Positions 51,623-61,947 of a stretch of 64,000 nt of DNA are shown here, piece after piece. The stretch spans positions 124,001 to 188,000 of the IMG/VR virus record IMGVR_UViG_3300014720_000001. One strand, written 5' to 3'. Below the pieces are notes generated by a model that was not told where the DNA came from, ran no database searches, and worked only from the letters and a program-made list of their open reading frames with translations. A program made the translations under genes and the position numbers. Position 1 is the first letter of the stretch, and each line of letters opens with the position of its first letter. This DNA comes from a virus.

Positions 51623-51698
51623 TAGCCGGGGTGAGATTCGAACTCACGGTCCCTAGCTTATGAGGCTAGTGAGGACGACCAGACTCCTCTACCCGGCG
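51623..51698 (-). tRNA. tRNA-Met (CAU), initiator-like
   Basis: A full cloverleaf folds from 51698 to 51623 (76 bases): 7-bp acceptor stem, a 4-bp D-stem with a loop containing TCTGGT, the anticodon stem CTAGC/GCTAG with loop CTCATAA, and T-arm GTGAG-TTCGAAT-CTCAC. The CAU anticodon could be Met or, after tRNA-Ile lysidine modification, Ile. It resembles bacterial initiator tRNA in A11:U24, the AG-pyrimidine-CTGGT D-loop and the unpaired position 1, but the mismatch is C1:U72 instead of C1:A72 and the GGG:CCC anticodon-stem pairs are absent. CCA is not encoded. Confidence 0.85.
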
Positions 51699-52764: not shown

Positions 52765-52835
52765 ATGCCCGACTAGGATTCGAACCTAGACAAAAAGAAT
52801 CAAAATCTCTTGTGCTACCGTTACACCATCGGGCA
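52765..52835 (-). tRNA. tRNA-Gln (UUG)
   Basis: 71 bases fold into a cloverleaf: acceptor TGCCCGA/TCGGGCA, D-stem GTGT/GCAC with loop AACGGTA, anticodon stem AGAGA/TCTTT (one G:U) with loop TTTTGAT, anticodon TTG, T-arm CTAGG-TTCGAAT-CCTAG. It reads CAA (and CAG) Gln codons. CCA is not encoded. It lies 22 bases after the tiny gene stop at 52858. Confidence 0.88.
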
Positions 52836-53294: not shown

Positions 53295-54440
53295 TTAATA
53301 AATCACGGTCAATGAAACAGCGCAATCGGTGAGCGGAAACAAGTACACACCGCGCGCAGAAAATTGCCTTGGACGATCCAGCCGCATAACAACGCGGCCA
53401 GAATGCAGAAGTGTCGCCACGACGTAAGGCCCGGTTGACGAAACCGAGGCGTCGAGCGAGATAACATAATCCGTACCCGGCACAGGGACTTGGATCGCCG
53501 CGCCTTGCGGGCCTGTGGCGCCAGTAATTCCAAGCCTAACCGCTTCTTTGCCGCCGTCAATAACGCGTTCCAACGACGCTACGTCCTCACGCGGTACAAA
53601 CGCCCAGTGCACCGGCTTTGTAAATTCGCCAAGGTACCCGGGCCGCTCAATCTGCTTGCGCTGCGCTTCGCTGATGACCGCGGCGATCTCAAGATGCCGC
53701 GCAGCAATGTTTACGTAGGCAAGCAGCGCCGGACAGATAGACGCGTAGTCTTCAGCCGTGTTTGTGCCGGTAACCGACGGCGCTGAACGCGGGTTGACCG
53801 GGAAAAACTCGCCGGTCTCAAGTAGCAGGCAATGCGTGTTGGTGCCGTTGTCGAATGAAATACCGCGGTAAGCCGGGCCAAGTTCGCCGCTGGGAAGCTT
53901 ATCGCGAAAATTCACAAGACTGGCCGACAGCGCAGACGCCATCGTGTCTGTGAACTGCGCGGGCGAGAACACACGCGCCAGCATGCGCTCGTTGTAAATC
54001 TCAGGCGCAGACGGGTTCACTGTTAACGGATTTTTTGGGGACTCCGCGACCTCTGCGATCACGGCGTCAAAGATATCTTGGGCAGGAACTTCAGCGCCCG
54101 CCAATCCGTTCTCGATCAGGTCCGAGAACAACACAAGCGCCGCAGTCACAATCGCGGGCGCTGTTTCTTTGGTCGCGCCGTACTGCATCGCGACGTCCAG
54201 CCCGCGATTGAGCGACGCGTGTGTAATCGAAAACGGCACGGCGCCCCAGTTGATGTCGCCAGCTTTCTGTGCCAACGTAGCCAGCGCCTTGATGAACGCC
54301 GGATCTTTCTTCGGCGTGCACGACTGGCGAAACAGTTCGAGCGTGCAGGCCAGCAGCCGTAGCTGCCCCAGATCGTCCGATGCTCGAAACTTTCCTATGA
54401 ACTCCCTAAGTAGAACCGACGGTTTTGGTGATTTGTCCAC
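53295..54440 (-). CDS. Unknown 381-residue protein coupled to HTH-DHS gene
   Basis: GTG 54440 is preferred because GGAG lies six bases before it; an upstream ATG at 54452 has no SD. It contains EFIGKFRASDDLGQLRLLAC, AMQYGATKETAPAIVTAALV, ARHLEIAAVISEAQRKQIER, a short collagen-like [11 protein letters not shown], then a beta-rich C-terminus (VISLDASVSSTGPYVVATLL). The start lies 35 bases inside the HTH-DHS gene, so it is likely translated with it. No family is recognised. Confidence 0.7.
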   Translation of the reverse strand: MDKSPKPSVLLREFIGKFRASDDLGQLRLLACTLELFRQSCTPKKDPAFIKALATLAQKAGDINWGAVPFSITHASLNRGLDVAMQYGATKETAPAIVTAALVLFSDLIENGLAGAEVPAQDIFDAVIAEVAESPKNPLTVNPSAPEIYNERMLARVFSPAQFTDTMASALSASLVNFRDKLPSGELGPAYRGISFDNGTNTHCLLLETGEFFPVNPRSAPSVTGTNTAEDYASICPALLAYVNIAARHLEIAAVISEAQRKQIERPGYLGEFTKPVHWAFVPREDVASLERVIDGGKEAVRLGITGATGPQGAAIQVPVPGTDYVISLDASVSSTGPYVVATLLHSGRVVMRLDRPRQFSARGVYLFPLTDCAVSLTVIY

Positions 54441-55608
54441 TGAATACTCCATCACAAGCGTGTAAAAGTGTCATCACGTTCGATTTAAAAGTGCCAGAAA
54501 GATTGTGTGCTGTGCCGCTGTGGCTATTCACATAAGGGGCAAAGTCAGGTTGAACGTGACGGTCGATAAGAACTGCGTGAAAATCTGCCGCGCGCTCCTT
54601 GTCGGACAACGCGCACCGAGCTTGAATAAACAACTGCAATCCGCGCATAGCGTCGCCTATAAACAACACTACGCCGTTTTGCGTTTGACATATCTGACGC
54701 ACTTGCTCGGCAAACACCAGCAAGTCTACGTACGTCGCGGCGCCAAAAGCCGCGCCAATTTCTGCGCCGGGCCCGTCAGGATAAATGTGCCCAGCCATCT
54801 CGCCCAGTTCGACATGAATAGTCGCCGGGACACCCATTGCGTACGCGGACCGCAGCAGGCTGCGCTCTGTCGCGGCGCTAGCTGAATACGCCCACCGACC
54901 AGCCGCCTCGCCGTAACCTAGCCCCTGATTGGCCGCCATACGCGCCACGTAATTCAGGTCGTGCGTGAGTCCCGTTTCGGCCATCCGGATGTCAGCCACG
55001 AGGCCGGCGCCTGTAGTCGCGACGGCGGTCACGTACTTTTTGCGCAGTAGTTCAACGGCAGCGATGCCAGCGCCGGAGTTAATCGCCGGCGCCGAAATAA
55101 ATAACAATACCGGCTGGTCAGCGCCGCGAGCGTTATAGATTGCGCGCGCAACGTCTACGTGCTCGTCGCTAACGGGACAGGGGACCTCAGCGGTTACAGG
55201 CGGCATGGCGTCACACGGCGGAGTCGTGGCCCGAAGGGTGTCGAAAAGCGCAAAGGAACTATTAAGCTGCTTCGGCAGCGCAAGCGCGCTGGGGTCGTCG
55301 CCGGCTGTGGCGCGCAGCATAGCGCCGTTACCCCAAATGAGCCAATTGGCGCTGACGTGTGTGCGGCTGAGCACCTGCGCCAGCAGCGCCGGCGTCACGC
55401 GCAGCCGTCCTGCCAGCACCTGACTCAAGTGCGACGGGTCGAGTGCCAGCGCCCGGGCAAACGCCGGCACATTGTTATCAAAAAGCGTGGCGCAGATGTA
55501 ATCAAGTCTCTGCAGCCACGGTTGGTCGCCGTGTTCCAGTTTGCGCTTGTGCTCTTCGAACTTCTTCTGCTGGTGCGGGCTGCGCTGCCCGTTTTTGGGT
55601 CTCGGCAT
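54406..55608 (-). CDS. CI-repressor-type helix-turn-helix fused to deoxyhypusine-synthase-like domain
   Basis: 400 residues. The N-terminal 35-98 has the phage CI repressor HTH pattern: LALDPSHLSQVLAGRLRVTP then VSANWLIWGNGAML (matching VSxDWLLxGxGPM). The C-terminal 155-385 resembles the deoxyhypusine synthase fold and its bacterial relatives: GADQPVLLFISAPAINSGAG, YVTAVATTGAGLVADIRMAE, LRSAYAMGVPATIHVELGE and GVVLFIGDAMRGLQLFIQA. DHS transfers the aminobutyl group of spermidine to a lysine; the active-site Lys of that enzyme is not visible here. It may be a ligand-sensing repressor. It overlaps both neighbours (107 and 35 bases). Confidence 0.75.
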   Translation of the reverse strand: MPRPKNGQRSPHQQKKFEEHKRKLEHGDQPWLQRLDYICATLFDNNVPAFARALALDPSHLSQVLAGRLRVTPALLAQVLSRTHVSANWLIWGNGAMLRATAGDDPSALALPKQLNSSFALFDTLRATTPPCDAMPPVTAEVPCPVSDEHVDVARAIYNARGADQPVLLFISAPAINSGAGIAAVELLRKKYVTAVATTGAGLVADIRMAETGLTHDLNYVARMAANQGLGYGEAAGRWAYSASAATERSLLRSAYAMGVPATIHVELGEMAGHIYPDGPGAEIGAAFGAATYVDLLVFAEQVRQICQTQNGVVLFIGDAMRGLQLFIQARCALSDKERAADFHAVLIDRHVQPDFAPYVNSHSGTAHNLSGTFKSNVMTLLHACDGVFSGQITKTVGST

Positions 55609-56599
55609 GGTCGACCTTTCGTTTCTGCTGTGTCACCAAGCTACGCCCGGCTGACCGCAAGATACCAGTCCCCGCTAGTAAACGCATCCGATGCACTGCG
55701 CGCAAGTAGGCGGCTACCAGTTCGTCGTAACCGACGAGCAGCTGTTGCGGGTACCGCGTAAACTCACCAAAGATATGAAAGAAGTCAGACGCCGGTTCGT
55801 TATAGCAGTCCGAGACTTTGATCGACTTTATGTACGTCACGCGGCTACCCCGCACCCGCACTGCCGGCAGCTTTGTCTTTGCCGCGTGCAGAAAAAACTG
55901 GCGTGCTTCAATCAACCAGCCGCCGTCTTGCGGAACTACGGCCAGCCGCCACATCGATCCAAGCACGTGCCTGTTTAATGTCTTAACGCATTTGCTGTAG
56001 GCATCGCGCTCACGCTGAAGCTCGCCCCACAACAACCGCGCGTACACACGCACTTTCTCGGGGCCGCACCCGACGCGCGGATCCCAGTCAGGCGCCGCAA
56101 CAAATCGCGCTGCCACCCGGCACGTCGCGACTAGTTTGGTGTCTTTGTTGTGCCGACCGACAGCCCGCAACTTGTGCTTGACGTCACGATACTGAGCCGC
56201 GCTGATGCGGGCATAACAAAACGGGCAGATGTGCGCCCGGTTGCACGGACGATATACAGCTTTTCGGCGCCAACGAAAGTACATGTACGTCGGCCGGCAA
56301 AACATGCACCGTTGAAACGACAGCCGAAACTTATCAAAGTCAAAGTCAGGTGCGTTCGAGTCGGCATTTGTACCGGTCGGAAACCAGAGCGCCCGAATGG
56401 CCAGCTCTTTTAGTTTCGACACCCACTGCTGCCGAATCGTGTTCGTGCGGCCAGTCACCGTGTTGTGGGTCTTGGCGCCGGTCAGCCCCAGTACAAACTG
56501 CTGCACAAAAATATGCGCAGTCCGCACGCTAATCCGCCGCACTCGCCACGTCGGTATTCTGTACCGGCGAATGAACTCAGCAAACTCAATTAGTGCCAT
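55502..56599 (-). CDS. Cys-rich Rep-like protein
   Basis: 365 residues from ATG 56599. Cysteines form a zinc-like cluster CMFC (near 100), RPCNRAHICPFCYARISAAQ, and continue YRDVKHKLRAVGR; the CxxC...RPCNRxxICPFC pattern recalls zinc domains of plasmid and phage replication initiators. Further basic segments include RYPQQLLVGYDELVAAYLRA. The last 35 residues overlap the HTH-DHS gene and are Ala/Gln/Arg-rich. No HUH (rolling-circle) motif is recognisable, so a replication role is only a possibility. Confidence 0.62.
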   Translation of the reverse strand: MALIEFAEFIRRYRIPTWRVRRISVRTAHIFVQQFVLGLTGAKTHNTVTGRTNTIRQQWVSKLKELAIRALWFPTGTNADSNAPDFDFDKFRLSFQRCMFCRPTYMYFRWRRKAVYRPCNRAHICPFCYARISAAQYRDVKHKLRAVGRHNKDTKLVATCRVAARFVAAPDWDPRVGCGPEKVRVYARLLWGELQRERDAYSKCVKTLNRHVLGSMWRLAVVPQDGGWLIEARQFFLHAAKTKLPAVRVRGSRVTYIKSIKVSDCYNEPASDFFHIFGEFTRYPQQLLVGYDELVAAYLRAVHRMRLLAGTGILRSAGRSLVTQQKRKVDHAETQKRAAQPAPAEEVRRAQAQTGTRRPTVAAET

Positions 56600-56807
56600 G
56601 CGTAGTGAGCGTCTTGGGCCGCGGCGGAATCTTACCAAACCATACCGAGCAGCCTAGCACGATAATACGCATAGCCGGCGCGCTGTGCATGCCAATTGAC
56701 AAGACGTGTCCCAGCCCGACCCAATCAAACCGCACACCCCAGTACCGTTTATCAGTAACGGACAACGTAACCGTCCACGATTCATAGTTGTTAACACTGT
56801 GACTCAT
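56586..56807 (-). CDS. Small unknown protein
   Basis: 73 residues starting MSHSVNNYESWTVTLSVTDK. The middle is YWGVRFDWVGLGHVLSIGMH with a hydrophobic stretch PAMRIIVLGCSVWFGKI, so it could be a small membrane-associated beta protein. It is joined to its neighbours by ATGA at the start and a 14-base overlap at the end. Not recognised. Confidence 0.58.
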   Translation of the reverse strand: MSHSVNNYESWTVTLSVTDKRYWGVRFDWVGLGHVLSIGMHSAPAMRIIVLGCSVWFGKIPPRPKTLTTHGTN

Positions 56808-56971
56808 TTCTTCGCTTTCTTGCGGCGCTTTGGTTTAGTGGCGTTTTCCAGTTCAGTCCACAACTCTTCAACCGTAAATTGATCGCAGTCAACGGCGCGC
56901 AGAGGGACGTATCGAATCTCATGTAGAAACTGCCGCACGAGCTTTTTCAGTTTTTTCAGTTCGGCGCTCAT
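56804..56971 (-). CDS. Small basic protein (55 aa)
   Basis: Starts MSAELKKLKKLVRQFLHEIR, then FTVEELWTELENATKPKRRK, with Lys-rich ends. GAGGAAAACG precedes ATG 56971. It overlaps the preceding gene by 53 bases and the next by ATGA. Possibly a small DNA-binding protein from its composition. Not recognised. Confidence 0.55.
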   Translation of the reverse strand: MSAELKKLKKLVRQFLHEIRYVPLRAVDCDQFTVEELWTELENATKPKRRKKAKK

Positions 56972-61463: not shown

Positions 61464-61599
61464 TTTCGAGACCTCGGTTAAAAAAGACGTGGAAGCACAA
61501 CTTACCTGTCGGGCCGCGAAGCACAATGCTGTCGAGAAACGAACGGGTCTCGTTGGCGGCAGATTCATCAGCGGAAGATGCACTCGAATCGTTTTGCAT
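61336..61599 (-). CDS. First gene of the leftward unit, unknown
   Basis: 87 residues from ATG 61599 with GAGGTGACC immediately before it. Starts MQNDSSASSADESAANETRS, then SIVLRGPTGKLCFHVFFNRG. The last 40 residues overlap the next gene by 128 bases and look like an out-of-frame tail (Ser/Ala/Cys/Gly-rich). The first half may be the real folded product. Not recognised. Confidence 0.5.
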   Translation of the reverse strand: MQNDSSASSADESAANETRSFLDSIVLRGPTGKLCFHVFFNRGLENDNTRSSDDSARATAAAQQPACGSDCACGGSPQADLPRPDGA

Positions 61600-61621
61600 G
61601 GTCAGGTCACCTCAGCTCGCG

Positions 61622-61639
61622 GATTATGTTGTCATAATC
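61622..61639. repeat. Inverted repeat (operator-like)
   Basis: GATTATG (61622-61628) and CATAATC (61633-61639) are perfect complements around four bases, about 20-40 bases upstream of the first start of the leftward unit. The position suits a repressor operator or an mRNA leader hairpin. Confidence 0.5.
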
Positions 61640-61704
61640 AGTGGCGAGACGTTTGTAGGGGGGTAAATTGGTCAAAAAACGCAACGCAAATGCTTGTGCC
61701 AGTT

Positions 61705-61714
61705 GGACTTACAA
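61705..61714. repeat. Direct repeat, copy 1
   Basis: GGACTTACAA occurs here and again at 61769-61778, 64 bases apart; the second copy is part of the inverted repeat at 61758-61776. Possible paired binding sites. Confidence 0.35.
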
Positions 61715-61757
61715 CACGCGGTTTGCGCAAATTTTGTCCGTTTTATGTGGACCTAGA

Positions 61758-61776
61758 GTAAGTCCTTCGGACTTAC
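61758..61776. repeat. Inverted repeat (8-bp arms, 3-base loop)
   Basis: GTAAGTCC (61758-61765) and GGACTTAC (61769-61776) are perfect complements. The right arm is part of a 10-base direct repeat. Predicted as a stable hairpin in RNA. Confidence 0.5.
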
Positions 61777-61800
61777 AAGGAGAAAGGCATTTTTCGAGAC

Positions 61801-61830
61801 ATGCAGGCATTGTTTGAATGCCTACTGCAT
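61801..61830. repeat. Extended inverted repeat
   Basis: AGGCATT (61805-61811) and AATGCCT (61817-61823) are perfect complements around five bases, with outer ATGC (61801-61804) and GCAT (61827-61830) also pairing after a small bulge. Confidence 0.5.
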
Positions 61831-61858
61831 GATCGGGGGGTTGTCCAATTCACGTTGG

Positions 61859-61876
61859 GCAAACTGGGTAGTTTGC
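61859..61876. repeat. Inverted repeat (7-bp arms, 4-base loop)
   Basis: GCAAACT (61859-61865) and AGTTTGC (61870-61876) are perfect complements with loop GGGT, close to the large terminator. Confidence 0.5.
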
Positions 61877-61894
61877 ACTCAACGTTTGGATAGC

Positions 61895-61947
61895 AAAAAA
61901 AGAGATGGCGTAGGGGCGGGGAAATCCCGCCCCTACGCCATCTCTTT
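61895..61947 (-). terminator. Very strong rho-independent terminator
   Basis: 20 perfect base pairs (61901-61920 with 61926-61945) and two more A:T pairs frame a five-base loop, followed on the minus strand by seven T (61895-61901). It starts four bases after the ParB-like stop (61952). It should stop leftward transcription almost completely. Confidence 0.93.

Follow-up and report, generated by a model that had tools for sequence, protein, structure and literature searches.

Deoxyhypusine synthase (DHS) carries out the NAD-dependent oxidation of spermidine, after which an imine forms on Lys329 (PMC7226451). In trypanosomatids, a catalytically dead DHS paralogue works through complex formation (PMC3663545). 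A published BLASTP survey reported that homologues of DHS and of the homospermidine synthase SpeY are absent from viruses (PMC9992855). GSU2086 represents an uncharacterized bacterial family; in Geobacter, the defects in electrode growth are alike for GSU2085 (hldE), GSU2086, and GSU2087 (gmhA) (PMC5585712).

Here, we describe a phage gene that joins a putative CI-type helix-turn-helix (HTH) to a DHS-fold domain. The window analyzed is a stretch of 64,000 nucleotides that corresponds to positions 124001 to 188000 of a 204,621-bp virus record (G000). On its minus strand, an uninterrupted open reading frame (ORF) of 400 amino acids extends from 55608 to 54406, and all motifs quoted in a preliminary description of this DNA fall within this single ORF. 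That description had considered the pairing of an HTH with a DHS-like domain to be undescribed. In agreement, we retrieved neither a description of the combination nor anything else relevant from the open literature, subscription papers and preprints being outside the scope of this search. The gene comprises the following features:

54406 to 55608, minus strand: HTH-DHS ORF, with a CI-type HTH, a linker, and a DHS-fold (GSU2086-like) domain (ORF, translation, full-length conservation in nine contigs)
55309 to 55506, minus strand: putative CI/Cro-type HTH, residues 35 to 100, ending in the phage-repressor signature NWLIWGNGAM (PHROG, 4ich, tblastn)
54421 to 55170, minus strand: DHS-fold domain, nearest to the GSU2086 family, residues 147 to 396 (NCBIfam, hhalign, AlphaFold, Foldseek)
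54991 to 55017, minus strand: TTGAGLVAD, a DHS-like nucleotide-loop motif, residues 198 to 206 (alignment with DHS and GSU2086; near-invariant in 10 relatives)

We propose that this protein may be a one-component jumbo-phage regulator in which the DHS-fold domain acts as an oligomerization and ligand-binding module, the ligand state setting DNA binding. To this reading we assign about an even chance.

Conservation of the two-domain protein

Nine other IMG/VR contigs (L001 to L006, L014, L126, and L127; most of them 140 to 205 kb in size) carry full-length homologues that share the start and the arrangement of the two domains, at 62 to 76% identity. The fusion of the HTH to the DHS-fold domain is thereby kept in 10 of 10 family members, and no full-length homologue was detected in GenBank phages. 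The dN/dS ratio was about 0.06 to 0.11 for the C-terminal domain (residues 147 to 396) and about 0.04 to 0.22 for the HTH (residues 31 to 100); both domains are under purifying selection. Because of the full-length conservation in nine contigs and the low dN/dS values, we consider the ORF to be a real gene. The regulator reading is favored by the persistence of the fusion in every member and by the selection acting on both halves.

The N-terminal helix-turn-helix

Residues ~35 to 100 matched PHROG 9710 (1.9e-5) and a PHROG "HTH DNA binding protein" model (4e-4), and the PHROG "transcriptional repressor" model phrog_2328 was matched by all six relatives tested. A profile of six relatives retrieved PDB entry 4ich, a "Transcriptional regulator" (E = 0.005). 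Searches of phages by tblastn with the N-terminal part gave weak matches (best E = 0.003), and the annotated ones were nearly all repressors. Furthermore, the C-terminal end of the HTH shows the signature NWL.WG.G.M, as in CI/Cro-type repressors. The PHROG 9710 and 4ich matches thus point to an HTH of the lambda-repressor type, though Pfam HTH_31 was below threshold (E = 0.08) and the AlphaFold model, computed with 56 sequences, is of low confidence in this part, because only close homologues cover it. A match to Pfam iHD-CE (E = 0.003), overlapping the HTH, was put down as an HTH match.

Taken together, these scores are each modest but in agreement, and residues ~35 to 100 resemble, weakly but consistently, a CI/Cro-type repressor HTH, as had been proposed for the N-terminal part from the outset. 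The consistent similarity to phage repressors favors a role as regulator, which is weakened by the low individual scores and the low confidence of the HTH model.

Fold and family of the C-terminal domain

The Pfam DHS family PF01916 scored 14.9 bits (E = 0.017) against the HTH-DHS protein, below the gathering cutoff of 27, and 15.2 bits in a genome search. The NCBIfam GSU2086 family (NF052581) matched with E = 8.5e-28 and 97.8 bits against a curated cutoff of 250, and the relatives scored between 93.7 and 100.2 bits. Alignment of the phage and GSU2086 domains by hhalign gave a probability of 99.2% over 212 columns (E = 8e-20, 26% identity), and a GSU2086 profile search of the phage record returned the HTH-DHS locus at 2e-12. 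AlphaFold with 56 sequences gave pLDDT values mostly between 75 and 95 over residues 141 to 396, except for ~269 to 280, whereas a run with seven close homologues gave a pLDDT of 37 and was left uninterpreted. In a Foldseek search of the PDB, all 41 matches with E ≤ 1e-3 were DHS or its ArgZ/AgrE C-terminal (LOR/SDH) relatives, with a probability of 1.00. The TM-scores were moderate (0.22 to 0.52 by target length), in part because the whole chain, including the unresolved N terminus, served as the query. Foldseek against the BFVD viral models gave no match at E ≤ 1e-3, a PDB sequence search with a phage-only profile gave nothing meaningful, and a genome-contig scan seeded with the phage domain, which detects close relatives only, gave no bacterial relative.

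We consider a DHS-type fold established by the combination of NCBIfam GSU2086, hhalign, AlphaFold, and Foldseek, PF01916 alone being sub-threshold. The preliminary description had anticipated a DHS-like fold, and structure prediction followed by Foldseek against the PDB recovered, at E ≤ 1e-3, the DHS/ArgZ fold and no unrelated one. Its assignment of the domain as a DHS relative stands for the shared fold but not for the nearest family: by sequence, the domain is closest not to DHS or SpeY but to the GSU2086 family of bacteria, which forms a separate branch within the DHS/ArgZ-C fold.

Members of the GSU2086 family were gathered by searching GTDB genomes with a short consensus of the bacterial family, which yielded 80 loci; the one scanned with NCBIfam was GSU2086, with 428 bits. 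Stand-alone GSU2086 homologues also occur in phage contigs, at L106:452-1363 and L107/L108:3911-4777 (NCBIfam, 214 to 229 bits). The L106 homologue lies directly before a portal gene, as does that of L108, which is located just 3' of the terminase large subunit gene with one small gene between. More were seen in large viral contigs, namely, L102:3986-4930 (a 201-kb contig), L103, and L104:3995-4873; the L104 homologue is near a topoisomerase II gene, and that of L102 weakly matches ornithine cyclodeaminase TIGR00300.

Active-site residues

In the alignment, the DHS WGK segment (containing Lys329 in the human enzyme) corresponds to a gap in the phage domain and in GSU2086. Between residues 337 and 375, the HTH-DHS protein is free of lysine; in L126 and L127, arginine takes the place of K375. 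The GSU2086 motifs GAH.IK, HD, GTD, PEVFLKA, YRP, and GHHE are mostly altered or missing in the phage domain, which also lacks a GSU2086 segment of ~20 residues; from GTD..H.HP, PEVFLKA, and GHHE, only single residues are kept, such as H265, H274, and G372. Of features that may relate to NAD and spermidine binding, only the TTGAxLxxD loop, near-invariant across the family, was seen. Eleven further positions, H265, E267, E270, H274, D319, R322, H344, D349, H351, H363, and H368, make up a histidine-rich set that is invariant in the 10 sequences of the phage lineage.

Judged from these residues, the phage protein is not a deoxyhypusine synthase. It had been suggested that the protein may modify a lysine; a modification of the deoxyhypusine type is unsupported, because the DHS catalytic lysine is absent and K375 is an arginine in two relatives. 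Since this lysine is missing, we dismissed a main reading of polyamine synthesis or lysine modification, and a polyamine site is likewise unsupported. Binding of NAD or another nucleotide is possible, the TTGA loop being retained. The DHS/ArgZ fold, the near-invariant loop, and the gapped WGK lysine column favor the regulator reading. It is weakened by the many invariant polar C-terminal residues, which might just as well belong to an active site, in this case an altered one.

Alternatively, the protein may be an active enzyme tethered to DNA by its head. It would perform a GSU2086-type reaction, of the kind linked in bacteria to heptose/LPS genes, while the HTH brings it to phage DNA or serves in autoregulation, similar to trigger enzymes. 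The lineage-specific set of invariant His, Asp, Glu, and Arg residues and the low dN/dS would fit such an enzyme, as would the position of bacterial GSU2086 genes next to SIS-domain genes (Pfam SIS_2, GmhA-like, in 10 of 45 scanned neighboring proteins) and, in Geobacter, an electrode-growth defect of GSU2086 similar to those of hldE and gmhA. However, most GSU2086 invariants are altered, the ~20-residue segment is missing, and no SIS-domain gene was present among the 25 Pfam families listed, of 29, for 48 ORFs of the phage record. We regard this alternative as unlikely.

We hold it to be rather improbable that the DHS-fold domain is degenerate and ligand-free, a mere oligomerization scaffold for the HTH. 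The absence of the DHS lysine and of the GSU2086 motifs is consistent with such a scaffold, for which the dead DHS paralogue of trypanosomatids is a known parallel, but residues of the loop or pocket type in TTGAGLVAD, HVELGEMAGH, and IGDAMRG are conserved beyond what a scaffold needs.

Gene neighborhood and phage context

Two genes of the same direction overlap the HTH-DHS gene:

55502 to 56602, minus strand: upstream Cys-rich gene, 366 amino acids, overlapping the HTH-DHS start by ~107 nucleotides; order and overlap are the same in relatives
53295 to 54452, minus strand: downstream gene, about 385 amino acids, no family, overlapping the HTH-DHS end; synteny conserved

The upstream gene has no Pfam or PHROG match and contains a zinc-ribbon-like Cys-rich segment (CMFCRPTYMYF...CNRAHICPFC). 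The HTH-DHS gene sits within a run of overlapping minus-strand genes, inside which no promoter of its own is evident, and genes of the region match SbcC, SbcD, UvsX, primase, DnaB, and polymerase. It is quite improbable that the HTH is a protein-protein or nucleic acid-unspecific module of a protein acting in replication or recombination instead of transcription, a role that these neighbors and the lack of an evident promoter would suit, since the N-terminal part resembles CI/Cro-type repressors down to their signature.

A search for tyrosine integrases (PF00589) gave no match in the 204,621-bp record. For this reason, and because the gene lies inside the overlapping run, a classical role as lysogeny repressor is doubtful, and the regulator reading is weakened in that no lysogeny role accounts for a repressor.

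Genes for tRNA-Met (51623 to 51698) and tRNA-Gln (52765 to 52835) separate the recombination genes from the HTH-DHS gene. One of the 48 ORFs scanned in the record matched Pfam Volactin (1.5e-62), and others matched matrixin, trypsin, ferritin, and glycosyltransferase families.

A conserved noncoding region

The sequence directly upstream of the operon (56560 to 56960) is not conserved and contains no inverted repeat, and the region from 61600 to 61920 was therefore examined instead. A noncoding stretch at 61599 to 61947 shows strong conservation in six phages; it lies ~6 kb upstream of the HTH-DHS gene on its strand, where the run of genes on this strand begins. It contains two dyads:

61622 to 61639, minus strand: dyad D2, GATTATG-ACAA-CATAATC, immediately 5' of the ORF whose start is at 61599; candidate operator
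61758 to 61776, no strand assigned: dyad D1, GTAAGTCC-GAA-GGACTTAC; candidate regulatory site

The segment from 61600 to 61900, which had been put forward as an operator region, does hold conserved dyads. D2 includes the -10-like sequence CATAAT and is conserved, with one mismatch in the more distant L138, whereas D1 has the same sequence in all six of the closer phages that were aligned and is absent in L138. Both are operator candidates only, all carriers belonging to one lineage. D1 is probably not the site of the HTH-DHS protein, since it is identical between phages with differing recognition helices. The position of conserved dyads at the head of the gene run, with the -10-like element in D2, favors the regulator reading.

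At 61899 to 61947, a perfect 22-bp terminator-like hairpin followed by seven T is found at the end of a 430-amino-acid gene. Rfam matches in 61600 to 61920 were sub-threshold, fell mostly on this hairpin, and were discarded.

Proposed function

As a regulator, the protein would probably be dimeric or tetrameric, and its N-terminal HTH would bind operator DNA. The C-terminal domain would oligomerize and bind a ligand, which may be NAD(H), another nucleotide, or a phosphorylated metabolite, and the state of this ligand would set DNA binding. The target may be a gene run of the phage itself, adjoining the replication and recombination genes. In a more specific form, which we advance only tentatively, the protein may be a metabolite-sensing switch, its GSU2086-related domain reading a metabolite of the host, such as NAD(H), a sugar nucleotide, or a heptose-pathway compound, and setting the expression of a jumbo-phage operon from D2 or D1 in the conserved region. 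We found no sequence evidence linking the phage domain to the heptose pathway. If true, a transcription switch would be the role of the first member of the DHS superfamily to be described from phages.

The novelty lies in the pairing of an HTH with a DHS fold and in the presence of a DHS-superfamily domain in phages: a divergent DHS-fold domain is fixed to a repressor-type HTH across one jumbo-phage lineage, and stand-alone GSU2086 homologues are present in other phage contigs. The fusion offers a testable way into the function of the GSU2086 family, whose bacterial members often adjoin heptose genes, and an entry to metabolite-linked regulators in large phages in which no integrase was detected.

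Comparison with known systems

GSU2086 (NF052581) gives the strongest match by sequence, covering most of the domain, and the DHS catalytic lysine is absent in both. However, the phage domain scores below the family cutoff, has a deletion of ~20 residues, lacks GHHE, PEVFLKA, and GAH.IK, and is fused to an HTH. With DHS and SpeY (PF01916), it shares the fold (Foldseek probability of 1.00) and a TTGA-type nucleotide loop, but it is sub-threshold in Pfam, lacks the equivalent of Lys329, and has far shorter loops. The C-terminal domain of ArgZ/AgrE, the LOR/SDH ornithine cyclodeaminase (TIGR00300, PF21570), ranks with the best matches by fold (6juy, 6lrh, and 3c2q), and GSU2086 relatives also weakly match this family. 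The identity is only ~12 to 14%, and the phage protein has no arginine dihydrolase domain and no identifiable ornithine site. CI/Cro-type phage repressors resemble it in the N-terminal HTH. They differ in that no tyrosine integrase was detected in the phage carrying the HTH-DHS gene and in that, instead of an S24 peptidase or a Cro-like C terminus, the phage protein carries a DHS-fold domain.
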